Assembly (NCBI GenBank): GCA_903839035.1
Contig: CAIMAQ010000042.1
Span: 1 to 64,000, forward strand
Direction: 5' to 3'
DNA length: 64,000 bases
Source of the DNA: an uncultured Opitutia bacterium
Lineage (GTDB): Bacteria > Verrucomicrobiota > Verrucomicrobiia > Opitutales > Opitutaceae
The translations under genes were made by a program, and so were the position numbers. Below, piece by piece: positions 3,888 through 54,545 of the stretch. The stretch's first letter is position 1. Every line of letters begins with the position of its first letter. Under the pieces are notes generated by a model. That model worked only from the letters and a program-made list of their open reading frames with translations. It did not search any database and was not told the DNA's origin.

Positions 3888-4017
3888 CCGGTGAATTTGC
3901 GCCGCCGCCGGCATCCCTCCTGCTAGGCTGCGCGTAATCATGGGAGAACCCCGGCAGGCCGCGCTAAACCTCGGCTTGCCCGGGCTCTGGAATATCCTCC
4001 TTCACGCCGCGCACCTG

Positions 4018-5208
4018 ATGTCTTCCTCCCCCGCCACCCTCCCGCCCTTCCCCCGCGCGCTCGCGGCGCTAGTGCAATGGTTCGACTCCGATCATGCCCC
4101 CGGCGGCGCCGACCAGGTCCGTGCCGAGCCCGATCGCGTCGAATGGGTCCGCTGCATTCCCTTCATCATCCTGCATGCCGGCTGTTTCATCGTGCTGTGG
4201 GCCGGCGTGAGTCCGTTCGCGGTCGGGACCGCCGTCGCGCTTTATTTCCTGCGGATGTTTGCCGTCACCGGCATTTACCACCGCTACTTCTCCCACCGGA
4301 CCTACCGCACGTCGCGTTTCGGCCAGTTTCTCCTCGCCCTCTGGGGCGCGACCACCGTCCAGCGCGGCGCCCTCTGGTGGGCCTACCACCACCGGAATCA
4401 TCACCAGCATTCGGACGACCCCGCGGACGCCCATTCGCCCCACGTGCACGGTTTCTGGTGGTCGCACATCGGCTGGATCACCAGCCGGCGAAATTTTCCC
4501 ACGGACTACTCGAAGCTCCGCGATTTCACTTCCTACCCCGAGCTCGTCTGGTTGAACCGCTTCGACACGGTCGTGCCCATCCTGTTCGCCACCGGGCTGT
4601 GGGGCCTCGGCTGGCTGCTTGAGCTCCACGCTCCCGGCCTGCACACCACGCGCTGGCAGATGCTCGGGTGGGGCTTCTTCGTCAGTACCACCGTGCTGTT
4701 CCACGGCACATCCTGCATCAACTCCCTCGCGCACCTGATGGGCCGGCGGCGGTTCCAGACCTCCGACCACTCGCGCAACAGCTGGATTCTCACGTTCATC
4801 ACGCTCGGCGAGGGCTGGCACAACAACCACCACCGCTACATGAGCTGCACGCGCCAGGGTTTCTACTGGTGGGAATTCGACCCGACCTACTACGGCCTCA
4901 AGCTGCTCTCCTGGACCGGCTTCATCTGGGACCTGAAACCTGTGCCTGCGTCCGTGCTGGCCGAAGCCGCGGCCGCCGACCACGCCGGCACAATCGCCGC
5001 CGCCGAGCGCGCCGCGCTCACCCACCCGGAGTTTTCCTCGTTCAAGAAGGTCGTTCCCGCCGCCGCCGCGATGGCCATGGCCACCCTGCACGCCTCCCAC
5101 GGGGTCGCCCCGCGCCGGTCCGACCCGCCGGCGATCCAACGCGACTTCACCGGGCTCGCCCAGTCACCCGAGGTGGCGCCGCCGGGCCCGTCCGCGTCGC
5201 AGAATTGA
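4018..5208 (+). CDS. acyl-CoA / fatty acid desaturase (delta-9 type)
   Basis: An integral-membrane di-iron desaturase that would introduce a double bond into an acyl chain using O2 and an electron donor. All three histidine boxes of the stearoyl-CoA desaturase class are present: HRYFSH, HHRNHH and HNNHH. Paired hydrophobic segments surround them. The last 80 residues are Ala/Pro-rich and look dispensable. ATG 4018 gives a normal N-terminus; ATG 3940 would add 26 residues. It is the first gene of a same-strand run of lipid genes and probably supplies the unsaturated substrate for the methyltransferases downstream. Confidence 0.88.
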   Translation: MSSSPATLPPFPRALAALVQWFDSDHAPGGADQVRAEPDRVEWVRCIPFIILHAGCFIVLWAGVSPFAVGTAVALYFLRMFAVTGIYHRYFSHRTYRTSRFGQFLLALWGATTVQRGALWWAYHHRNHHQHSDDPADAHSPHVHGFWWSHIGWITSRRNFPTDYSKLRDFTSYPELVWLNRFDTVVPILFATGLWGLGWLLELHAPGLHTTRWQMLGWGFFVSTTVLFHGTSCINSLAHLMGRRRFQTSDHSRNSWILTFITLGEGWHNNHHRYMSCTRQGFYWWEFDPTYYGLKLLSWTGFIWDLKPVPASVLAEAAAADHAGTIAAAERAALTHPEFSSFKKVVPAAAAMAMATLHASHGVAPRRSDPPAIQRDFTGLAQSPEVAPPGPSASQN

Positions 5209-5244
5209 ATCCATCCGCGCCGCCGGCGCGTAATAAGGTCGCAC

Positions 5245-6540
5245 ATGGCCAAACTCGCGATCATCGGCACCGGCATCGCCGGCCTCGGCTGCGCCCACTT
5301 CCTCCACCGGGAGCACGAGCTCACGCTGTTCGAGCAGAACTTCTACGCCGGCGGCCACACCAACACCGTCACCGTCAGCGAGCCCCACACCGGCCGGCCC
5401 GTCCCGATCGACACCGGGTTCATGGTGTTCAACCACGCCACCTACCCGCTGCTCACGCGGCTCTTTCGCGATCTGGCCGTGCCGACCAAGCCGACCCTGA
5501 TGTCATTCAGCGTGCGCCATGCCGCCACCGGCCTCGAGTATGCCGGCTCGTCGCTCAACCACCTCTTCGCCCAGCGCCGGAACCTCTTCCGCCCGCGTTT
5601 CTACCGGATGCTCGCCGCCGTCAGCCGCTTCAACCGCGAGGCCATTGCGGCCCTCGATGATCCCGCGGTGCAAAACGAGACCCTGGGCGACTACGTGCAG
5701 CGCCGCGGCTACGGGGAGGATTTCTTCAACCTCTACCTCGTACCCATGAGCTCGGCCGTGTGGAGCACGCCGCCCGAGCTCATGCTGGGGTTTCCCGCGA
5801 CCTCCCTGCTGCGCTTCTTCCACAACCACGGCTTCCTCGGTCTGAGCACCCAGCACCAATGGTGGACCGTCGAGGGCGGTGCGAAAACCTACGTCGAAAA
5901 AATCTCCGCCCCGTGGCGCGACCGTCTCCGCCTCGGGTCGGCCGCCACCCGCGTCATCCGCTCGCCGCGCGGCGTCACCGTGATGACCTCCACCGGCACC
6001 GCGCAACAGTTCGACCAGGTCATCCTCGCTTGCCACGGCGACGAGGCACTGAAGCTCCTTGACCACCCCACCGCCGGCGAGGCCCGCCTGCTGGCCGAGT
6101 TCAAGTACCAGCCGAACTTCGCCACACTGCACACCGACACGAGGGTCATGCCGCGCACGAAACTCGCCTGGTCCAGCTGGAACTACGAAATCAACCGGGA
6201 CCCCGCCTCGGGAGGGGTTTCCACCGCCACCCATTACTGGATGAACTCGCTGCAGGGCGTCTCCAACCGCGAGAACTACTTCGTCACCATCAACCGGCCC
6301 GAGGCCATCGCCCCGGAAAAGGTGCTGCGGCGCATCGCCTACACGCACCCACTCTTCAGCCTCGGTGCCATCCGTGCCCAGGCCGAGCTTCCCGCCCTCA
6401 ACGCCGCCGCCCGCGGCACCACCGGGACGTTTTTCGCCGGCGCCTGGCAGCGCTACGGTTTCCACGAGGACGGCCTGCTCAGCGCCTACAACCTCAGCGC
6501 CCAGCTCCTCGGCCGCGACCCCTGGCCGACGAAGGCCTGA
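5245..6540 (+). CDS. FAD-dependent amine-oxidase-like oxidoreductase
   Basis: A 431-residue flavoprotein. The N-terminal dinucleotide fold has GTGIAGLG at residues 8-15, and FEQN follows at the end of the second strand. The C-terminal FFAGAWQRYGFHEDGLLSA is the FAD-binding end of the NAD/FAD amine-oxidase group usually found beside DUF1365 and CFA-synthase genes. A direct amine substrate is unlikely; by context it probably oxidises or desaturates an acyl lipid. It lies 36 bases after the desaturase gene and is followed by a palindromic repeat before DUF1365. Confidence 0.85.
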   Translation: MAKLAIIGTGIAGLGCAHFLHREHELTLFEQNFYAGGHTNTVTVSEPHTGRPVPIDTGFMVFNHATYPLLTRLFRDLAVPTKPTLMSFSVRHAATGLEYAGSSLNHLFAQRRNLFRPRFYRMLAAVSRFNREAIAALDDPAVQNETLGDYVQRRGYGEDFFNLYLVPMSSAVWSTPPELMLGFPATSLLRFFHNHGFLGLSTQHQWWTVEGGAKTYVEKISAPWRDRLRLGSAATRVIRSPRGVTVMTSTGTAQQFDQVILACHGDEALKLLDHPTAGEARLLAEFKYQPNFATLHTDTRVMPRTKLAWSSWNYEINRDPASGGVSTATHYWMNSLQGVSNRENYFVTINRPEAIAPEKVLRRIAYTHPLFSLGAIRAQAELPALNAAARGTTGTFFAGAWQRYGFHEDGLLSAYNLSAQLLGRDPWPTKA

Positions 6541-6633
6541 TTGTCATTGCGAGCCCGACGCAGGAGGGCGCGGCAATCCATTCGGATGGATTGCTTCGTC
6601 ATCCCGCCGGCGGGCCTCCTCGCAATGACAATT
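6541..6633. repeat. CATTGCGAG-type palindromic repeat, copy 2
   Basis: TTGTCATTGCGAG begins right after the flavoprotein stop codon and is matched by CTCGCAATGACAA at the other end. Between them GCAATCCATTC and GGATGGATTGC form a second inverted pair. It shares this layout with 2182-2302. The transcript would fold into a long hairpin between two genes of the lipid cluster. Confidence 0.8.
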
Positions 6634-6694
6634 GCGGCGTCCACGCACTGGCCTTGCCCGTACCATCTTTACCGCTATGCTGCCGTCTGCCCGC

Positions 6695-7648
6695 ATGAAT
6701 TCCTGCCTCTACGAGTGCCACATCATGCACGCGCGTTTTTCCCCGCGGCCGCACCGGTTTCTCTACCGGATCTTCCTGTTCGCGATCGACCTGGACGAAC
6801 TCGACCTGCTCCACCGCCGCTTCGCCCTCTTTTCCGTCAACCGCCCCAATCTTTACTCCTTCCGCGAGCGCGACTTTCTCCCGACGAGCGAAACCCTTCA
6901 CAATGGGCCGCCTGCGGCCCCCGCTCCCCTCGTTCGCTCGCCCGCCGAAGCTTTGCCTGCCCGCCATAGCCGCGGCGATGGCGGGGCGAAGGAGGGCCCT
7001 ATCTCCCTCAAATCCCGCGTCGTGTCCTATCTCGCCGCCCGCGGCGTCGATCTCACCGGCGGACGCGTGATGTTGGTCACCCTCCCGCGCGTCCTCGGCT
7101 ACCTCTTCAACCCCGTGTCGTTCTATTTCTGCTACGACCGGACTGGCGCCCCCGTCGCCGCCCTCGCCGAGGTCACCAACACGTTCAAGGAGATGAAGCC
7201 CTACTTCCTCGGCCCCGACACGCGCCCGGCACCGCTTTCAGCTCCCGTCAAAGCCGCAACCGCTGACTCCGACGGCACCTTCCGGCTCCGGACGCCCAAG
7301 AATTTCTACGTTTCCCCCTACACCGATGTGGATGTCGCCTTCGATTTCGCCCTGCGCGCACCCGCGGAAAAGCTCTCCATCCAGATTGACGACTACATCG
7401 GGACTGAGCGCACGCTCACCAGCACGCTCAGCGGGCCGCGCCGCGAGCTCACCGGCGCCCGCCTCGCCTGGTACCTGGTGAAATACCCGCTCATCACCCT
7501 CCGTATCATCGCCCTCATCCACTGGCACGCCTTCCGGCTCTGGCTGAAACGTGTCCCGTGGTTCGCCAAGTCCGCCCGGGCCGCTGACCAGCGCGGGCTC
7601 TATCGCCCGCACTCCTCCCTCGCCCCCTCCGCCCCTTCCAATTTTTGA
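6695..7648 (+). CDS. DUF1365 domain-containing protein with in-frame repeat insertion
   Basis: The start ATG gives MNSCLYECHIMHARF, matching the usual DUF1365 opening. LFAIDLDEL follows, then YLFNPVSFYFCYD and FYVSPYTDVD, all typical of the family. DUF1365 proteins are commonly encoded beside a flavoprotein and a CFA-type methyltransferase, as here, but their biochemical role is not settled. About 35 Pro/Ala/Gly-rich residues (roughly 70-105) interrupt the domain. At the DNA level they contain an inverted repeat (6960-6985), so they look like an inserted element that kept the frame. An ATG at 6677 is an alternative start. Confidence 0.85.
   Translation: MNSCLYECHIMHARFSPRPHRFLYRIFLFAIDLDELDLLHRRFALFSVNRPNLYSFRERDFLPTSETLHNGPPAAPAPLVRSPAEALPARHSRGDGGAKEGPISLKSRVVSYLAARGVDLTGGRVMLVTLPRVLGYLFNPVSFYFCYDRTGAPVAALAEVTNTFKEMKPYFLGPDTRPAPLSAPVKAATADSDGTFRLRTPKNFYVSPYTDVDVAFDFALRAPAEKLSIQIDDYIGTERTLTSTLSGPRRELTGARLAWYLVKYPLITLRIIALIHWHAFRLWLKRVPWFAKSARAADQRGLYRPHSSLAPSAPSNF
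6900..7000. repeat. palindromic element inside the DUF1365 gene
   Basis: CCCGCCAT (6960-6967) and ATGGCGGG (6978-6985) form a perfect hairpin within a stretch rich in CCGCC and GGCGG. The encoded residues match nothing conserved in the family. Flanking conserved residues resume immediately on both sides (FLPTSETLH before, LKSRVVSYL after). Confidence 0.6.
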
Positions 7649-7706
7649 ACCAAACATCGCCACGCCTTCATTCCGCCCCAGCGGGACATCGGCGGGCCCA
7701 ACCTGC

Positions 7707-9002
7707 ATGAGCCAGCCCCCCACTCCTTCCACGCCCATCGTGGCCGACTACTCCCGCCAGCCCGGCGGCACGTTCATCTCGCGCGCCGTCCTCGACGCCT
7801 TCACCGCCATGCCCCGCGGTCACCTGCGCATGGTGCTGCCCAACGGCGACGCCCGCGAATTCGGCGCGCAGACCACCGAGGTCACCCTCCCGCTCGGCCT
7901 GCCCGCCCTCGCCACGATCCGCGTGCTCCGACCCGCGTTTTTCAACAAATGCTTCTGGTCGGGGGACATCGGTTTCGCCGAGTCCTTCATCGCCGGCGAC
8001 TGGGAAACCCCCGACATCGCCGCCGTCATCGCCTGGTTCATCCTCAACCTCGAGCACGCCCCCACGCTCTCCGGCTCCCAGCGCGCCCGCTCGCTCGCGT
8101 TGAACCTCCTCCGCTTCGGCAACCGGGTCGGCCATCTCCTCCGGCCCAACTCCCGCACCACCGCCCGCCGCAACATCAGCGAGCACTACGATCTCTCCAA
8201 CGACTTCTTCGCCCTCTTCCTCGACCCGTCTATGATGTACTCCGGCGCGCACTGGAAGCGCCCCGGCATGTCCCTCGCCGAGGCGCAGCGGGAGAAAAAC
8301 GACGCCCTCTGCCGCAAGCTCCGCCTCGTGCCCACCGACCATGTCCTCGAGATCGGCAGCGGCTGGGGCGGCTGGTCCATGCACGCCGCCCGGACGTACG
8401 GCTGCCGCGTCACCACCGTCACCATCTCGCAACAGCAATTCGACCTCGCCACCGCGCGCGTCGCCGCCGCCGGGCTCACGGATCGCGTCGAGGTGAAATT
8501 CTGCGACTACCGCGACCTCACCGGCCGCTTCGACAAGATCGTCTCGATCGAGATGATGGAGGCCATCGGCCACCGCTACCTGCCGGCGTTCTGCGAGACC
8601 CTCAGCCGCGTCCTGAAACCCGACGGCCTGCTCGCCCTCCAGTTCATCACCTGCCCCGACGCCCGCTACGACCAGTTCCGCCGCGGTGTGGATTTCATCC
8701 AGAAGCACATCTTCCCGGGCTCGCTCCTGCTCTCGCTCAACCGCGTCAACGACCAGCTCACCCGTGCCGGCGGCTTCGTGCTCCACGGCGTCGAGGACTA
8801 CGGCCACGACTACGTCTCGACGCTCCGCGCGTGGCATGAAAATTTCCGCGCCCGCCTCGCCGCGGTCCGCGCCCTCGGCTTCGACGAGCGCTTCATCCGC
8901 AAGTGGAGCTACTACCTCGGCTACTGCGAGGCCGCCTTCGCCCTGCGCAACATCTCCGTCGTCCAGACCCTGCATACCCGGGCCAACAATATTTCTTTCT
9001 GA
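7707..9002 (+). CDS. cyclopropane-fatty-acyl-phospholipid synthase-like methyltransferase
   Basis: A 431-residue protein of the CFA synthase (CMAS) class, expected to methylate a double bond of a phospholipid acyl chain using S-adenosylmethionine. An N-terminal lipid-binding-type domain (about 1-135) is followed by EHYDLSNDFF, the SAM motif LEIGSGWGG and SIEMMEAIGHRY. In E. coli Cfa the motif YSCAYW carries a cysteine that binds bicarbonate; here it reads YSGAHW. That may mean methylation without ring closure. ATG 7707 is chosen as the first start that does not overlap the DUF1365 gene. It lies 58 bases after that gene. Confidence 0.87.
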   Translation: MSQPPTPSTPIVADYSRQPGGTFISRAVLDAFTAMPRGHLRMVLPNGDAREFGAQTTEVTLPLGLPALATIRVLRPAFFNKCFWSGDIGFAESFIAGDWETPDIAAVIAWFILNLEHAPTLSGSQRARSLALNLLRFGNRVGHLLRPNSRTTARRNISEHYDLSNDFFALFLDPSMMYSGAHWKRPGMSLAEAQREKNDALCRKLRLVPTDHVLEIGSGWGGWSMHAARTYGCRVTTVTISQQQFDLATARVAAAGLTDRVEVKFCDYRDLTGRFDKIVSIEMMEAIGHRYLPAFCETLSRVLKPDGLLALQFITCPDARYDQFRRGVDFIQKHIFPGSLLLSLNRVNDQLTRAGGFVLHGVEDYGHDYVSTLRAWHENFRARLAAVRALGFDERFIRKWSYYLGYCEAAFALRNISVVQTLHTRANNISF

Positions 9003-9062
9003 GGTAGGGCGCGACCGCTGGGCGCGCCACAACCTCGGCGGGCCCAGCGGTCCCGCCCTACC
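9003..9062. repeat. TAGGGCG-type inverted repeat between lipid genes
   Basis: GGTAGGGCGCGACCGCTGGGC is mirrored by GCCCAGCGGTCCCGCCCTACC with one mismatch in the arms. The right arm ends about 13 bases before the next ATG. It resembles the TAGGGCGGGTC elements at 34821 and 54914 but has a different internal sequence. Confidence 0.7.
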
Positions 9063-9074
9063 CCCTCCAATCCC

Positions 9075-9482
9075 ATGATCCTCTTCCTCCGCGCCCTCTT
9101 CCTCGTCATCATCGCCTCGATGCTGTGGGTCACGAGCTGGGCCAGCCTGCAGTGCCCGCTCTTCGCCATTCCGCGCGACGTCTTCACGCATCCGTGGTTC
9201 ATCGCGACCCTCTTCGACGCCTACTGGGGCTTTGTCACCTTCTACGTCTGGGTCGCCTACAAGCAGACTTCATGGATCGCAAAGATCGCCTGGTTCTGCG
9301 CCATCATCCTGCTCGGCAATCTCGCCATGTCCGCCTACTGCCTCAGGGAACTCTTCCGCATACCCCGCGACGGCCGGATCGCCGGCGTGCTCACCACCCG
9401 GCGCGAGGGCCCCGGCTGGCTCGGTCCGATCCTCGCCGTCCTCGGCCTGACGGTCACCCTGCTGGGTTTGCCACGCAGCTGA
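9075..9482 (+). CDS. small four-helix membrane protein (DUF1475-like)
   Basis: 135 residues with hydrophobic segments at about 3-20, 42-62, 67-90 and 112-131 and short loops, so nearly all of it lies in the membrane. The TLFDAYWGFVTFYVWVAYK stretch resembles DUF1475 proteins, an assignment from memory. It sits between a CFA-type methyltransferase and the DUF2062/DUF1295 pair, so a role as membrane partner in acyl-chain modification is plausible but unproven. Confidence 0.65.
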   Translation: MILFLRALFLVIIASMLWVTSWASLQCPLFAIPRDVFTHPWFIATLFDAYWGFVTFYVWVAYKQTSWIAKIAWFCAIILLGNLAMSAYCLRELFRIPRDGRIAGVLTTRREGPGWLGPILAVLGLTVTLLGLPRS

Positions 9483-9546
9483 TGTAACCCACCTGGCGCG
9501 AACACGGCTTGTGCCGGCCGGAAGCGTCGTTTAGCTATTTGCGGTT

Positions 9547-10101
9547 GTGCCAGAAAAACCCTCCCACCCTCCGCCCGCCCTTCGGCGCAATTTCTGGCAG
9601 CGGCGGGTGCGCGATCCGATCGTCGCCCAGCTGACGCAAGGCATCACGCCGGAAAAAATCGCGCTCACCGTCGCCGTCGGCAGCGCGTTCGCCCTCTTTC
9701 CGGTCCTCGGCACCACCACGCTGATCTGCTTCCTGATCGCTTGGGCCCTGCGACTGAACCAGCCCATCGTCCAACTCATCAACCAGGCACTCTGGCCCGC
9801 GCATTTTCCGGCCATCTTCGGCTGCATCTGGATCGGCGAGGCCCTCTTCGGCGCACCCCATGTGCACATCAACATCCGGTACCTGCGGAAAATGTCCGAC
9901 ATCGTCTGGAACGACCCCAACCTGTTCTTCCGCCAGTTCGGCCTCACCGTGATGTACGCCGTCGTCGCGTGGGCCATCATCGCGCCGTTCTACATCGCCC
10001 TCGTCTACTACATCGCCCTGCCGATCACCCGCGAGGTCACCTATCTCAAGCACAAGGCGGAGAAAATCCCGCCCGTGGCCCCCCCGCCGGCCGCGTCATG
10101 A
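9547..10101 (+). CDS. DUF2062 domain-containing membrane protein
   Basis: 184 residues. After a basic start (RRNFWQRRVRDP) comes TPEKIALTVAVGSAFALFPVLGTTT, the characteristic DUF2062 membrane segment. A second hydrophobic region and a basic tail with Pro and Ala follow. DUF2062 domains occur alone or attached to glycosyltransferases; their function is unknown. The start is a GTG. The stop overlaps the next ATG in ATGA, showing translational coupling to the DUF1295 gene. Confidence 0.8.
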   Translation: MPEKPSHPPPALRRNFWQRRVRDPIVAQLTQGITPEKIALTVAVGSAFALFPVLGTTTLICFLIAWALRLNQPIVQLINQALWPAHFPAIFGCIWIGEALFGAPHVHINIRYLRKMSDIVWNDPNLFFRQFGLTVMYAVVAWAIIAPFYIALVYYIALPITREVTYLKHKAEKIPPVAPPPAAS

Positions 10102-10886
10102 GCCCCCTCGCCCTGCTGCTGATCGCCCTCGCGGTTCTCTGCGCCGCCTTCGGCCTGCTCTACCTCGTCGCCCGCCGGATGGACAACTACGGCATCGTGG
10201 ACATCGCGTGGTCGTATGCCTTTGGCGCCCTCGCGGCTTTCTACGCCCTCGCCGGCCCCGGCTGGCCGGTCCGCCGTGCGCTCATCGCCGCCATGGCCGT
10301 CCTCTGGAGCGCACGGCTCGGCACGCATCTCGCCATCCGTGTGATCGGGCACCATCCGGTGGAGGACGGACGCTACCAGCAGCTGCGCAAGGACTGGGCG
10401 GGAAACTTCACCACCAGGATGGCCGGCTTTTTCCAGATGCAGGCCGGGTCCGTCATCCTGCTCGGCGCCGCCTTCCTCATCGCCTGCCTCAATCCCGCCC
10501 CCGCCCTGCACCCGCTGGAACTCGCCGGCGCCGCCCTCTGGCTCATCGCCATCAGCGGCGAGGCCCTCGCCGACGCCCAGCTCGCCGCCTTCAAGCGTCA
10601 GGCCTCCAACAAGGGGAAGGTCTGCGACGTCGGCCTGTGGCACTACAGCCGGCACCCGAACTACTTTTTCGAGTGGCTCATCTGGATCGCCTATTTCGTC
10701 TTTGCCCTCGGCTCATCCTGGGGCTGGGTCGCGATTATCGGCCCGGCCAGCATCCTTTACCTGCTGTTGCGCGTAACAGGCATACCAATGACCGAAGAAC
10801 AAAGCCTCCGCAGCCGCGGCGACGCCTACCGTCGCTACCAGTCGGCCACGAGTGCGTTCATTCCTTGGTTCCCACGGAAGAAATAG
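10098..10886 (+). CDS. DUF1295 / steroid 5-alpha-reductase-like membrane protein
   Basis: 262 residues, polytopic. The C-terminal half has GLWHYSRHPNYFFEW and GIPMTEEQSLRSRGDAYRRYQ, the signature of DUF1295 proteins in the steroid 5-alpha-reductase and isoprenylcysteine methyltransferase fold. Such proteins bind NADPH or SAM near the membrane and could reduce or modify a lipid double bond. The ATG overlaps the DUF2062 stop codon by 4 bases. The substrate is inferred only from the neighbouring desaturase and methyltransferases. Confidence 0.85.
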   Translation: MSPLALLLIALAVLCAAFGLLYLVARRMDNYGIVDIAWSYAFGALAAFYALAGPGWPVRRALIAAMAVLWSARLGTHLAIRVIGHHPVEDGRYQQLRKDWAGNFTTRMAGFFQMQAGSVILLGAAFLIACLNPAPALHPLELAGAALWLIAISGEALADAQLAAFKRQASNKGKVCDVGLWHYSRHPNYFFEWLIWIAYFVFALGSSWGWVAIIGPASILYLLLRVTGIPMTEEQSLRSRGDAYRRYQSATSAFIPWFPRKK

Positions 10887-10993
10887 CGGGGAGAGGGTAG
10901 CGAGTCGCGAGCATCCGTCCTTCTTAACTCGCACCTGCGAACTGCCCTCTGAATCGCAAAAATCCCTACTCCCTACTCGCGACCCGCTACTTT
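10887..10993. repeat. GTAGCGAGTCGCGAG inverted repeat
   Basis: GTAGCGAGTCGCGAG near 10897 is mirrored by CTCGCGACCCGCTAC ending at 10990 with one mismatch. The inner sequence has further word-like repeats (cgcacctgcgaa, ccctactccctac). It separates DUF1295 from the second methyltransferase and is probably an intergenic repeat rather than part of either gene. Confidence 0.65.
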
Positions 10994-11004
10994 CAGCCAG
11001 TCCC

Positions 11005-12018
11005 ATGCTCGACTCCCTGCTCGAAAAAAACCTCCTGCCCGACTGGCTCGTCCGGATCGGCATCCGCCGGCTCCTCGCCCAGCGCCTCCGCGACGAGTCC
11101 GCGCGCTATAACCGCGACGCGTACGTCGTCGACCTGAAGACGCGCGCCCTCGCCGAGCAGACCGCCGCCGCCAACGAGCAGCACTACGAGGTCGCCACGC
11201 CGTTCTACCAGTTCTGTCTGGGCAGGCGCCTGAAATACTCCGGCTGCCTCTACCCCACCGGCACTGAGACGCTCGACCAGGCCGAGGAAGCCATGCTCGC
11301 CCTCTACGCCGAGCGCGCCCAACTGGCCGACGGCCAGAACATCCTCGAACTCGGCTGCGGCTGGGGCTCCCTCGCCCTCTACAACGCCGCGCGTTTCCCG
11401 CACTCGAAGATCACCGCAATCTCCAATTCCCGCACACAGAAGGAGTTCATCGACACCGAGGCGCGGAAACGCGGGCTCACCAACCTCCGCATCATCACCT
11501 GCGACATCAACGCCTTCGACATCGTCCCGGGCCAGTTCGACCGCGTGGTGTCCGTCGAGATGTTCGAGCACCTGAAGAACTACCAGCGGCTCTTCGCCCA
11601 CATCGCCCGCTGGCTCAAGCCCGGCGGCCTGCTCTTCGTCCACATCTTCACCCATTCCCGCTTCTCCTACCACTTTGTCTCCGAGGGCCCCAGTGACTGG
11701 ATGAGCCGCTATTTCTTCACCGGCGGTCAAATGCCGGCGCACGACCTGCTCCCGCAGTTCCAGGACGACCTGAAGCTCGTCTCCGACTGGCAGGTCAACG
11801 GCACCCATTACCAGAAAACCGCCGAGCACTGGCTCAAGAACATGGACGCCCACCGCGAGGAGATCTTCCCGCTGTTCATCGACACCTACGGCCGCGAGCA
11901 CGCGACCAAGTGGTGGGCCTACTGGCGGGTGTTCTACCTGAGCTGCGCCGAACTCTGGGGCTACCGCGGCGGCCGCGAGTGGATCGTCAGCCACTACCTG
12001 TTCAAGAAGCCGGAGTAA
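11005..12018 (+). CDS. second CFA-type SAM-dependent methyltransferase
   Basis: 337 residues of the CMAS superfamily but a different subfamily from the 7707-9002 enzyme. It lacks the long N-terminal domain and opens MLDSLLEKNLLPDW. Motifs include NEQHYEVATPFYQ, LKYSGCLYP, the SAM-binding LELGCGWGS and SVEMFEHL. Like its neighbour it should methylate an unsaturated lipid or related acceptor. Two unlike methyltransferases in one cluster suggest two successive methylations or two substrates. ATG 11005 lies just past an inverted repeat; the longer reading from 10852 would translate that repeat and overlap DUF1295. Confidence 0.87.
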   Translation: MLDSLLEKNLLPDWLVRIGIRRLLAQRLRDESARYNRDAYVVDLKTRALAEQTAAANEQHYEVATPFYQFCLGRRLKYSGCLYPTGTETLDQAEEAMLALYAERAQLADGQNILELGCGWGSLALYNAARFPHSKITAISNSRTQKEFIDTEARKRGLTNLRIITCDINAFDIVPGQFDRVVSVEMFEHLKNYQRLFAHIARWLKPGGLLFVHIFTHSRFSYHFVSEGPSDWMSRYFFTGGQMPAHDLLPQFQDDLKLVSDWQVNGTHYQKTAEHWLKNMDAHREEIFPLFIDTYGREHATKWWAYWRVFYLSCAELWGYRGGREWIVSHYLFKKPE

Positions 12019-12118
12019 TCGCAAAAGCACGAAAGAGCGTAAGAGCGAAAATTGAAAACCAATCCCCCTGATCAGGATCGTTTTCGCGTTTTGGCCCTTT
12101 CGTGCATTTGCGATAAAA
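12018..12118. repeat. CGCAAAAGCACGAAAG inverted repeat
   Basis: ATCGCAAAAGCACGAAAG at the left is mirrored by CTTTCGTGCATTTGCGAT at the right with one mismatch in 18. GCGAAAA and TTTTCGC form an inner pair. It begins at the stop codon of the methyltransferase and runs into the start region of the following TPR gene. Confidence 0.7.
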
Positions 12119-12882
12119 TCGGGAGGTTCTCCCGCCTTAGCCTGTGGGTTTTATCCGCCTTCGCGATCATCTCAGTCGTAAACGCCGCCAACATAGACGA
12201 CGTGTTGAAATCCGCGCTCGCCGCCGAGGCGCGCTGGGACACGCCAACCGCCCTGCAGCTGTTCCGGCAGGCCGACGCCCTGCACCCGAACGACGCGATG
12301 ATCCTGCAAAAGGTCTCGAAGCAATACTCCGACGCGACCAGCGACACCACCAACCCCGTCGAAAAGCAAAAGCTCAGCGCCGAGGCCCTCGCCTACGCCC
12401 AGCGCGCCGTCGCCCTCGAGCCGAAGAACCCCGTCAACATTCTCTCCGTCGCCATCTGCTACGGCAAACTGGCCACGTTCTCCGACACTCGCACCAAGCT
12501 CGAATACTCGCGCCACGTGAAGGAGTACGCCGAGGAGGCCCTTGCGCTGAAACCCGACTACGACTACGCCCACCACATTCTCGGCCGCTGGCACTACGAG
12601 GTCGCCACACTCGGCGTGGGCCCGCGTTTCCTCGTGAAGATCATTTACGGCGGCCTGCCCGCCGCCTCAACCGCGGAGGCCGTCCACCAATTGCGCCGCG
12701 CCACCGAGCTCGCCCCCGAAAAGCCCGCCCACCGCGTGGAACTCGGCCTCGCCCTCCTTGCCGACGGTCAACGTGAACTCGCCCGCCAGACCCTCGAGCA
12801 GGCCCTCGCGATGCCCAAGTGCGAGAAATACGACAACGAAGCCTTCGCCCGCGCCCGCGCCGGTTTGGAGAAATTGCGGTAA
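12052..12882 (+). CDS. exported TPR-repeat protein
   Basis: About 276 residues. A hydrophobic stretch LWVLSAFAIISVVNAAN looks like a signal peptide ending near residue 46. TPR-type helices follow (AEARWDTPTALQLFRQADALHPND, then AYAQRAVALEPKN and similar). The order resembles RMD1/FAM82-like TPR proteins, which share GPRFLVKIIYGGLP. The start is uncertain: no ATG precedes the signal sequence, and TTG 12052 and TTG 12091 both fall inside an inverted repeat. It closes the same-strand lipid cluster, possibly by chance. Confidence 0.75.
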   Translation: MKTNPPDQDRFRVLALSCICDKIGRFSRLSLWVLSAFAIISVVNAANIDDVLKSALAAEARWDTPTALQLFRQADALHPNDAMILQKVSKQYSDATSDTTNPVEKQKLSAEALAYAQRAVALEPKNPVNILSVAICYGKLATFSDTRTKLEYSRHVKEYAEEALALKPDYDYAHHILGRWHYEVATLGVGPRFLVKIIYGGLPAASTAEAVHQLRRATELAPEKPAHRVELGLALLADGQRELARQTLEQALAMPKCEKYDNEAFARARAGLEKLR

Positions 12883-53471: not shown

Positions 53472-54545
53472 ATGCCGACTGCCCTTGCCCCCCGCGACTA
53501 CAGCCTGACCGGACCGGAGAACCGACGGGCCGGGGAGCGCGGCCTCGCCGACGCCGAGTGGTATACGTGCCTGATTCCCCGCTCGCGACTGAAGGAGCTG
53601 ATGCAGCGGCGCGACGGCCCCGCCATCCGTGACACCCTGCTGTGGTTCGCGCTGCTGATCATCACGGGGACTCTCGGCTGTCTGACCTGGGGCACGTGGT
53701 GGACGATCCTGCCGTTCACGGTGTATGGCGTCCTCTACGGCTCGTGCTCCGACTCCCGCTGGCATGAGAGCCTGCACCGGACCGCGTTCAAAACCGTCTG
53801 GATGAACGACGCCCTCTACGAACTCGCGTCCTTCATGGTCCTGCGCGAATCGGTGCCCTGGCGCTGGAGCCACACCCGGCACCACACCGACACTATCATC
53901 GTGGGCCGCGACCCGGAGATCGCCGTGCCGCGTCCGCCGGACCTCCTCGGCCTCGCCCTGAGTTTCTTCAGCCTGAAGAGCGGCCCGCGCGAATTCCACC
54001 GCATGACGCTGCATAGTTTTGGCCGCCTCACGCCCGGCGAGGCCACCTACATCCCGGAAATCGAGCGGCCCAAGGTCTACCGCAACGCCCGCATCTACCT
54101 CGCGATCTATCTCGCCGTCATCGCCACCGGGGTCGCCACCCGCAGCTTCCTCCCCCTCATGCTCGTGGGGTTCCCCTCGTTTTACGGCGCCTGGCTGCTC
54201 CTCGTTTTCGGTCTCACCCAGCACGCCGGCCTCGCCGAGGATGTCCTCGACCACCGGCTCAACTGCCGGACGGTCTACATGAATCCCGTCCTGCGGTATC
54301 TTTACTGGGAGATGAACTACCACGTGGAGCACCATATGTTCCCCTTGGTGCCATACCACGCGCTGGGCCACCTGCATCAGGAGTTGAAGGCCGACATGCC
54401 CAAACCCTACGACGGACTCTGGGCCGCCTACCGCGAAATCATCCCCACCCTGCTCCGGCAGACGAAGGATCCAGCCTACCACGTGCAACGCCTGCTGCCC
54501 GCCTCCGCGCGCGCCCTGGGTTCCACCCCGCAGCCTGCCAGCTGA
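53472..54545 (+). CDS. membrane fatty-acid-desaturase/hydroxylase (MocD-like)
   Basis: 357 residues, integral membrane di-iron protein. The histidine boxes are HESLH near 97, HTRHH near 134 and HVEHH near 285, plus QHAGL. It is followed after 9 bases by a Rieske ferredoxin, the same arrangement as mocD/mocE of rhizopine catabolism, where the pair is thought to remove a methyl group from a methylated inositol amine. The substrate could be a methoxy sugar or a lipid. It is not closely similar to the 4018 desaturase. Confidence 0.85.
   Translation: MPTALAPRDYSLTGPENRRAGERGLADAEWYTCLIPRSRLKELMQRRDGPAIRDTLLWFALLIITGTLGCLTWGTWWTILPFTVYGVLYGSCSDSRWHESLHRTAFKTVWMNDALYELASFMVLRESVPWRWSHTRHHTDTIIVGRDPEIAVPRPPDLLGLALSFFSLKSGPREFHRMTLHSFGRLTPGEATYIPEIERPKVYRNARIYLAIYLAVIATGVATRSFLPLMLVGFPSFYGAWLLLVFGLTQHAGLAEDVLDHRLNCRTVYMNPVLRYLYWEMNYHVEHHMFPLVPYHALGHLHQELKADMPKPYDGLWAAYREIIPTLLRQTKDPAYHVQRLLPASARALGSTPQPAS

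Follow-up and report, generated by a model that had tools for sequence, protein, structure and literature searches.

The window, a 64,000-nucleotide stretch from an uncultured Opitutia bacterium (positions 1 to 64,000 of contig CAIMAQ010000042.1, assembly GCA_903839035.1, a 3.39 Mb draft genome in 126 contigs), contains eight co-directional genes on the + strand, from position 4018 (or an in-frame ATG at 3940) to 12018, which with high probability form a one-locus furan-fatty-acid pathway whose predicted products are dimethyl-furan lipids. The Pfam families, all above their cut-offs, were in order FA_desaturase, Amino_oxidase, DUF1365, CMAS, DUF1475, DUF2062, DUF1295 and a second CMAS. The initial annotation had reported eight genes running in one direction over 8 kb, and the open reading frames and the Pfam families agreed with this. 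Its suggestion of a furan pathway held in outline, as a flavoprotein, a DUF1365 protein, a CFA-type (cyclopropane-fatty-acid-synthase-type) methyltransferase and an enzyme of the FufM branch were all present, but its assignment of genes to steps was wrong. That the genes serve a furan-type lipid is very likely. The pathway is already known and its core is ordinary; what is new and unusual is the one-cluster form, where a single run holds the full dimethyl route together with a desaturase of its own and a predicted, conserved reductase.

The known furan pathway and its counterparts in the window

Furan fatty acids occur in bacteria, plants and fish and have been implicated in the protection of membranes from singlet oxygen. 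The bacterial pathway genes have been proven in two alphaproteobacteria (PMC7380195; the papers cited by PMC number stand here for excerpts of them, unless said otherwise). In R. sphaeroides, UfaM methylates cis-vaccenate, the flavoprotein UfaD (RSP1091) forms a conjugated methyl diene, and the DUF1365 protein UfaO (RSP1090) is required for the furan, whose oxygen derives from O2; the three are jointly necessary and sufficient for the monomethyl furan (PMC7380195). RPA2569, RPA2571 and RPA2570 have the equivalent M, D and O roles in R. palustris, and FufM (RPA0924), which is 26% identical to UfaM, adds a second methyl group to give the dimethyl furan (PMC7380195). Homologues of the monomethyl-furan enzymes were already stated to occur across the bacterial phylogeny (PMC7380195). 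The three genes lie side by side in Halomonas, and expression of Halomonas UfaM in E. coli led to a methyl-branched acid (PMC12089945).

The window has the order desaturase-ufaD-ufaO-ufaM-x-y-DUF1295-fufM-like, and its D-O-M order is that of RPA2571-2570-2569 as numbered. It thus has four enzyme families, the D-O-M order and the expected chemistry in common with the R. sphaeroides and R. palustris pathway (PMC7380195). In the window the FufM-like gene is in one run with D-O-M, and ufaM, ufaD and ufaO are adjacent; by contrast, the number of RPA0924 is far from those of RPA2569-2571, and in R. sphaeroides ufaM is distant from ufaD and ufaO (PMC12089945). The desaturase and DUF1295 within the run are also window features when compared with what the excerpts describe for these two species. 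A further counterpart is the Arabidopsis lipid-droplet set UFAMD1/UFAO1/FUFM1-LIME1, where one protein resembles UfaM plus UfaD, one UfaO and one FufM, but this set is eukaryotic and made up of separate genes, in contrast to one bacterial run (PMC10940516).

The comparison changed the assignment of the genes. A membrane desaturase had been taken for UfaD, and this was rejected because UfaD is assigned to the flavoprotein RSP1091 (PMC7380195). Flavoprotein, DUF1365 and CFA-type genes had been regarded as a separate stress-lipid set, but as UfaD is a flavoprotein and UfaO a DUF1365 protein, that set is itself the furan core. An undescribed lipid had also been proposed; the second methylase falls in the FufM/LIME1/coclaurine-N-methyltransferase branch, so that the known dimethyl-furan class is predicted instead.

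Along the proposed route, the acyl desaturase would place a cis double bond in an acyl chain. The UfaM-like enzyme would then methylate one olefin carbon with S-adenosylmethionine, and the double bond would shift without ring closure because this enzyme lacks residues of cyclopropane synthase. The UfaD-like flavoprotein would add a conjugated double bond, the UfaO-like DUF1365 protein would insert an O2-derived oxygen to give the furan, and the FufM-like enzyme would methylate the furan ring. The conversion of diene and O2 to furan and H2O balances (C19H34O2 + O2 = C19H32O3 + H2O), so no net reductant would be needed. DUF1295 would act as an NADPH-dependent C=C reductase on a pathway intermediate or an oxidised product.

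Conservation and distribution of the cluster

Co-occurrence was counted in 132 genomes of the order and in 240 genomes of the phylum. DUF1365 was found in 51 of the 132 and in 54 of the 240; 17 of these 54 were shared with the order sample and 37 were not among the order positives. FufM-type genes were present in 46 of the 51 order genomes with DUF1365 and in none of the other 81 (Fisher p ~3e-30), and in the phylum sample in 43 of 54 and 0 of 186. A genome of the order was scored as positive if its match was full-length with at least 503 bits; G119 and G086, with fragments at the ends of contigs, were counted as well. Sixty order genomes matched FufM at E 1e-10, and in those of the sixty not scored as positive the best match was UfaM-like or weaker. 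The highest scores below the threshold came from two genomes of family f20 (G094, 182 bits; G129, 168 bits), which would give 2/81 if counted. Eleven DUF1365 genomes of the phylum sample were without a FufM-type gene at E 1e-70. Among ten genomes of the window's family, all seven with DUF1365 have two strong CMAS genes, and the three without it have none above 27 bits.

The gene order was read in 50 order loci, one from each of the 51 DUF1365 genomes with G131 left out and with the window's own locus (L082) included, and in 80 named loci, the best 80 of at least 593 found with the FufM-like query. All eight families stood in order on one strand in 8 of the 50 order loci, and six (desaturase-D-O-M-DUF1295-FufM) in 20; these counts allow other genes in between in some loci, and some contigs end early. 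Among the 80 named loci, all eight families were in order in 11, six were in order in 28, and all six were present in 38. Taken singly, a UfaM-like gene was near 58 of the named loci, a UfaD-like gene near 56, UfaO near 55, a desaturase match near 46, DUF1475 near 34 and DUF2062 near 21. The flanking MFS and TPR genes had 5 and 16 matches in both locus sets, window included, compared with 105 for DUF1365. Since the order recurs in relatives and the flanking genes seldom do, the arrangement is more than chance. A search for the same order in other Verrucomicrobiota, which the initial annotation had put forward as a check, showed that it recurs in part of the phylum.

The core desaturase-D-O-M-...-DUF1295-FufM was seen in several families of the order among the 50 loci. 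DUF1475 and DUF2062 were mostly confined to the window's family and family f19. In f8, and at one locus of f4, the desaturase is found downstream; f11 and f22 show a rearranged order, and f21 loci have only D-O-M, with DUF1295 and the FufM-type gene elsewhere in the f21 genomes.

Five named records carry FufM-like genes 82-90% identical to the window's, and by title four are Opitutae/Opitutaceae and one is Verrucomicrobia. By title, the best 80 of at least 593 include Verrucomicrobia, Bacteroidetes, Lysobacterales, Methylococcaceae, Vampirovibrio, Obscuribacterales, Acidobacteria, Omnitrophota, Ignavibacteriales and Leptospiraceae. Outside Verrucomicrobiota, D-O-M together with a FufM-like gene was found in records from Bacteroidota, Pseudomonadota, a Cyanobacteriota-type group, Acidobacteriota (the class Thermoanaerobaculia) and Omnitrophota. 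A specifically verrucomicrobial version, as had been suggested, is therefore not what the records describe, as five other phyla have the cluster too, going by the titles of their records. The Leptospiraceae record has the FufM-like gene only, and the Ignavibacteriales record is without O and M on a short contig. For Verrucomicrobia, a literature search gave, judged by title, papers on diet, livestock and mouse gut microbiota.

Two methyltransferases of different branches

The UfaM-like gene (7707..9002, + strand; CMAS E 4e-85) and the FufM-like gene (11005..12018, + strand; CMAS E 8e-42) encode proteins that share 24% identity; their identity to E. coli Cfa is 35% and 29%, respectively. They had been described as two unlike CFA-type enzymes, and the low mutual identity agrees with this, but the second is not merely a divergent CFA enzyme, as its branch places it with FufM, LIME1 and coclaurine N-methyltransferase. 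In plasmid records, CFA-type genes of both kinds are named as cyclopropane synthase family.

All 102 UfaM-like sequences, the window's included, have E236, A240 and Q266 in E. coli Cfa numbering, that is, H240A and H266Q, and the window enzyme is thus without the His266 and His240 of E. coli Cfa. Glu239 and Tyr317 were kept in 102/102, and position 139 was Ser in 67, Ala in 17, Cys in 14 and Gly in 4. These counts leave out 5 of 107 UfaM-labelled matches with scores of 400 or less, namely one fragment and four that scored nearly alike with the FufM profile. The same residue pattern was found in 5/5 named proteobacterial UfaM-like proteins, two of them beside ChrR. The residues that hold bicarbonate in Cfa are Cys139, Glu239, His266, Ile268 and Tyr317, and the loss of His266 would fit a methylase without ring closure. 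From its family, the UfaM-like enzyme probably carries out the first C-methylation of the acyl double bond.

The FufM-like protein had coclaurine N-methyltransferase as its best match in the PDB (E 9e-76), compared with E 1e-28 for the best Cfa. Glu236, Glu239, His240, His266 and Tyr317 were kept, together with Phe268, in 108 of 110 sequences (two gapped; window included; one of 111 matches, a fragment, was left out), and the same pattern was found in 4/4 proteobacterial FufM-like proteins. The window protein is 45-53% identical to the products of four proteobacterial genes directly adjoining DUF1295. LIME1 is a coclaurine-N-methyltransferase-like plant protein. FufM shares 38% identity with LIME1 of Arabidopsis (PMC10940516). 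The FufM-like enzyme would accordingly be placed, by family, at a second ring methylation leading to the dimethyl furan.

The flavoprotein and the DUF1365 protein

The ufaD-like gene (5245..6540, + strand; Amino_oxidase PF01593 E 5e-20) encodes a flavin-adenine-dinucleotide-dependent flavoprotein of the amine-oxidase fold, with 41-42% identity to the flavoproteins from ChrR-containing loci of Azospirillum, Mesorhizobium and Rhizobium and 36% identity to that of Acinetobacter. Its family suggests a methyl-acyl desaturase that makes the conjugated diene. One relative (G035:C1, L039) has a UfaD-like gene apparently broken by an in-frame stop, with the UfaM-like gene ~400 kb off and the rest clustered.

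The ufaO-like DUF1365 gene (6695..7648, + strand; PF07103 E 6e-72) may start at ATG 6677 or 6695. The family alignments, with low-scoring matches left out and the window included, had 105 rows for UfaO, 101 for DUF1295, 100 for UfaD, 58 for the desaturase and 42 for DUF1475. Residues H11, R13, P139, N161, T162, K201, S206 and P207 (numbered from 6698) were invariant in 105/105 rows. At the 17 positions where at least 95% of the family agree, the window protein always has the majority residue. By family, the protein is a candidate for the O2-dependent closure of the furan ring. The UfaO model gave weak structural matches only, to lipocalin/nitrobindin-like barrels (Z ~6), from which no cofactor was assignable, and the UfaO profile had no match among PDB sequences at E 1. 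An in-frame extra stretch at ~6890-7004 inside the window gene contains a near-palindromic repeat and has low model confidence; its residues 78-84, 90 and 93 are present in 3-8 of 110 relatives. The stretch resembles an inserted repeat that a loop of the protein tolerates.

The desaturase and the starting acid

The gene for the membrane desaturase of acyl-CoA type (4018..5208, + strand; alternative in-frame ATG 3940; FA_desaturase E 1e-14) had acyl-CoA desaturase 1 (4ymk, E 1e-22) as its best PDB match, and its product probably supplies the cis double bond. FabA was over its cut-off of 238 bits in 0/10 genomes of the window's family, with a best score of 38 in the window's genome and 53 elsewhere. 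Acyl-CoA desaturase 1 is a delta-9 enzyme. The absence of FabA over the cut-off, together with the likeness to this enzyme, suggests delta-9 monoenes as starting acids and hence C7-armed furans, a possible difference from the alphaproteobacterial pathway. If so, a product could be 7-(3,4-dimethyl-5-pentylfuran-2-yl)heptanoic acid from 16:1, and not the alphaproteobacterial 9M5/9D5 acids. Alternatively, elongation of 16:1 to cis-vaccenate would lead to the known C9-armed acids. Five desaturase matches were found in the window's own genome, and a second fatty acid desaturase match in the window, at 53694-54422, scored 119 bits against the Pfam model compared with 56 for the cluster's own.

DUF1295 as a predicted reductase

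The DUF1295 gene (10098..10886, + strand; PF06966 E 7e-67) overlaps the stop of DUF2062 with its start at the ATGA of 10098-10101, as the initial annotation had noted. DUF1295 was found in 49 of the 51 order genomes with DUF1365 and in 1 of the 81 without (Fisher p ~1e-32), where two partial matches of 73-75 bits (G028, G071) were left out of 52, and in the phylum sample in 48 of 54 and 1 of 186. It was near 69 of the 80 named loci, and in 67 it preceded the FufM-like gene by no more than 700 bp. In two genomes (G293, G328) DUF1295 is present but more than 1 Mb off on the same contig, and an unlinked yet present DUF1295 means that the co-occurrence is not just linkage. Two draft genomes of the order, G062 and G078, have DUF1365 without DUF1295, as do G175, G207, G208, G301, G316 and G339 in the phylum sample. 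DUF1295 was present without DUF1365 in G079 and interrupted by a stop in G237. A tie of DUF1295 to the FufM-like gene alone was rejected, since the five DUF1365 genomes of the order without a FufM-type gene (G046, G049, G065, G090, G128) all keep DUF1295.

The DUF1295 model had a mean pLDDT (predicted local distance difference test) of 97. Its best structural match was delta14-sterol reductase (Z 15.7), followed by two steroid 5-alpha-reductases (14.6 and 13.5), with a root-mean-square deviation of 4.2 over 201-238 residues; the fold is shared with these enzymes (7bw1, 7c83, 4quv) over nearly the whole chain. N160, D164, R171, N193 and E197 are NADPH-binding residues in the steroid 5-alpha-reductase SRD5A2 (PMC7815742). 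Positions were paired by visual inspection, the numbering being shifted by 4; the window protein has E, D, K, N and E there, and over 101 rows the paired positions were E155 in 86, D159 in 101, K/R at 166 in 99, N188 in 101 and E192 in 92. SRD5A2 Asp164 and Asn193 thus match residues invariant in 101/101, and Glu197 one kept in 92/101. In contrast, identity to the steroid and sterol reductases is 13-14%, Asn160 is replaced by Glu in 86/101, the catalytic Glu57/Tyr91 were not mapped, and SRD5A2 R227, H231 and Y235 lie outside the DUF1295 alignment. From its model, DUF1295 is predicted, though not with certainty, to be an NADPH-dependent membrane C=C reductase of the steroid/sterol reductase fold, and an ICMT-like methyltransferase or a non-enzymatic role is less likely.

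A related set of genes is known from Chlamydomonas, where the SAK1-dependent singlet-oxygen genes include CFA1, CFA2, one DUF1365 gene and one DUF1295 gene, and where CFA2 appears as coclaurine N-methyltransferase in another table (PMC4067076). The families of these singlet-oxygen-induced genes are among those clustered in the window, but in Chlamydomonas they belong to a list of regulated genes rather than to a cluster, the CFA genes go under the name of cyclopropane synthases, and furan is not mentioned in the excerpts (PMC4067076). Among the papers found to name DUF1295 with DUF1365, or with reductase and fatty acid, none was seen to assign DUF1295 to furan lipids, and a root lipid-droplet paper (PMC12712439) mentions DUF1295 0 times.

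The substrate of the putative reductase may be sought in the chemistry of furans. Singlet oxygen opens furans to ene-diones, and 1,4-diketones close to furans. After exposure to singlet oxygen, 9M5-FuFA (a furan fatty acid) disappears from cells (PMC7380195), and steroid 5-alpha-reductases use NADPH to reduce enones (PMC7591894, PMC7815742). By analogy, DUF1295 might repair furan lipids, with the C=C of an ene-dione reduced by NADPH and the 1,4-diketone reclosing to the furan; we regard this as a tentative and rather improbable idea, and a reduction of a diene or monoene would be a plainer alternative. A literature search combining furan fatty acid, singlet oxygen and dioxo gave no paper.

Alternative explanations

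The genes could be read as two cyclopropane synthases with unrelated membrane genes, in an ordinary stress-cyclopropane cluster. Both methyltransferases match CMAS, and three NCBIfam cyclopropane fatty acid synthase models scored 127-254 bits against them, but the cut-offs of these models are 400-650 bits. The lost His266 and His240 of the UfaM-like family and the closer match of the second enzyme to coclaurine N-methyltransferase than to Cfa led us to reject two cyclopropane synthases, and as cyclopropanes need neither a flavoprotein nor DUF1365, an ordinary cluster of this kind is very unlikely. It is also quite unlikely that the second methyltransferase N-methylates a head group or small amine, so that the product would be a monomethyl furan. 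The closest solved structures are alkaloid N-methyltransferases and the Glu-x-x-Glu-His motif is kept in 108/110 FufM-like proteins, but these genes are confined to genomes with DUF1365 (46/46 in the order, 43/43 in the phylum), and the proven furan methylase FufM is itself 38% identical to LIME1, a plant protein of this branch. A third possibility is that the pathway goes no further than conjugated or methyl-branched acids, the products of UfaM and UfaD, which DUF1295 might then convert to a saturated mid-chain methyl acid; furan would not be the main product. The ene-reductase-like fold predicted for DUF1295 could saturate a methyl-branched monoene or diene, and its closest match, delta14-sterol reductase, acts on conjugated sterol dienes. 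Against this stand the presence of DUF1365 with its family-typical residues and the restriction to DUF1365 genomes of the FufM-like gene, which would be expected only if furan is made, and we consider such an end point unlikely.

Several points weigh against the one-locus furan pathway itself. The furan lipid product is a prediction from genes, and the case for the window genes as orthologues of UfaD, UfaO, UfaM and FufM is built on family, order and residues, with a DUF1365 protein just 24-33% identical to the proteobacterial copies. Genome relatedness inflates the co-occurrence counts and the Fisher p values, and the 80 named loci, having been found with the FufM-like query, are a biased sample. 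Three more genes of the R. sphaeroides operon are dispensable for furan (PMC7380195), so an operon neighbour is not necessarily a pathway enzyme. For DUF1295, the fold is common to ICMT methyltransferases (Z 11.7-12.5) and AtTam46 (11.2), with other folds at 7.0 or less; the top PDB match of its profile was AtTam46, a chain of a chloroplast motor complex (1e-4), with SRD5A2 next (5e-4), and Foldseek with the DUF1295 model gave no match at E 0.001 or better, the best being 0.012. The anti-sigma factor ChrR of the Sigma-E/ChrR singlet oxygen regulon, an alphaproteobacterial regulator, was over its cut-off in 0/132 order genomes and had no match in the window's genome, and ChrR control in this order was therefore rejected.

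Plasmids and neighbouring genes

Gene sets of this type were also found on plasmids. An Acinetobacter piscicola plasmid carries desaturase-D-O-M-DUF1295-FufM; Rhizobium, Mesorhizobium and Burkholderia plasmids carry DUF1295-FufM beside a flavoprotein and a sigma/anti-sigma pair, which is ChrR-named in the first two; and Azospirillum and Salinivibrio plasmids carry D-O-M, with no DUF1295 or FufM nearby on the plasmids looked at. Four furan-type sets (L164, L166, L167, L168) lie on plasmids typed as conjugative or mobilizable, and the trait may thus move between bacteria.

Between ufaM and DUF1295 the window encodes a small DUF1475-like membrane protein (9075..9482, + strand; PF07343 E 3e-10, profile positions 131-229 of 236 only) and a DUF2062 membrane protein (9547..10101, + strand; PF09835 E 6e-13). 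In Xanthomonas cucurbitae and Aquimonas (L163:7605-8141, L138:7636-8157) a DUF2878 gene replaces DUF1475/DUF2062 there, and different small membrane families occupy this one slot. In Mucilaginibacter (L104:10085-11197) the FufM-like and UfaD-like genes are separated by a BD-FAE-type alpha/beta hydrolase, and an alpha/beta hydrolase adjoins DUF1295 in Mesorhizobium. Intergenic inverted repeats in the window at 9003-9062 and 6540-6632, with 26-nt arms that are 92% complementary and 14-nt arms that are fully complementary, are perhaps dispersed repeat elements. A TPR gene (12052-12882; Pfam: RMD1-3-like) follows directly 3' of the cluster, with matches near 12 of the 80 named loci, mostly Verrucomicrobia.

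Implications

With a desaturase, three furan genes, a ring methylase and a linked predicted reductase in one run, the cluster would be a portable gene set for dimethyl furans, and it extends the predicted furan makers to Verrucomicrobiota, Bacteroidota, Xanthomonadales and several other groups. The residues of the UfaM-like family separate these enzymes from the E. coli-type cyclopropane synthase, and DUF1295, a family with no assigned function, can now be tested for a role as a missing step or in repair. If the repair idea is true, what would otherwise be a one-shot scavenger could be recycled as a membrane antioxidant; this would hold for bacteria and, by way of the DUF1295 gene co-induced there, for green algae.

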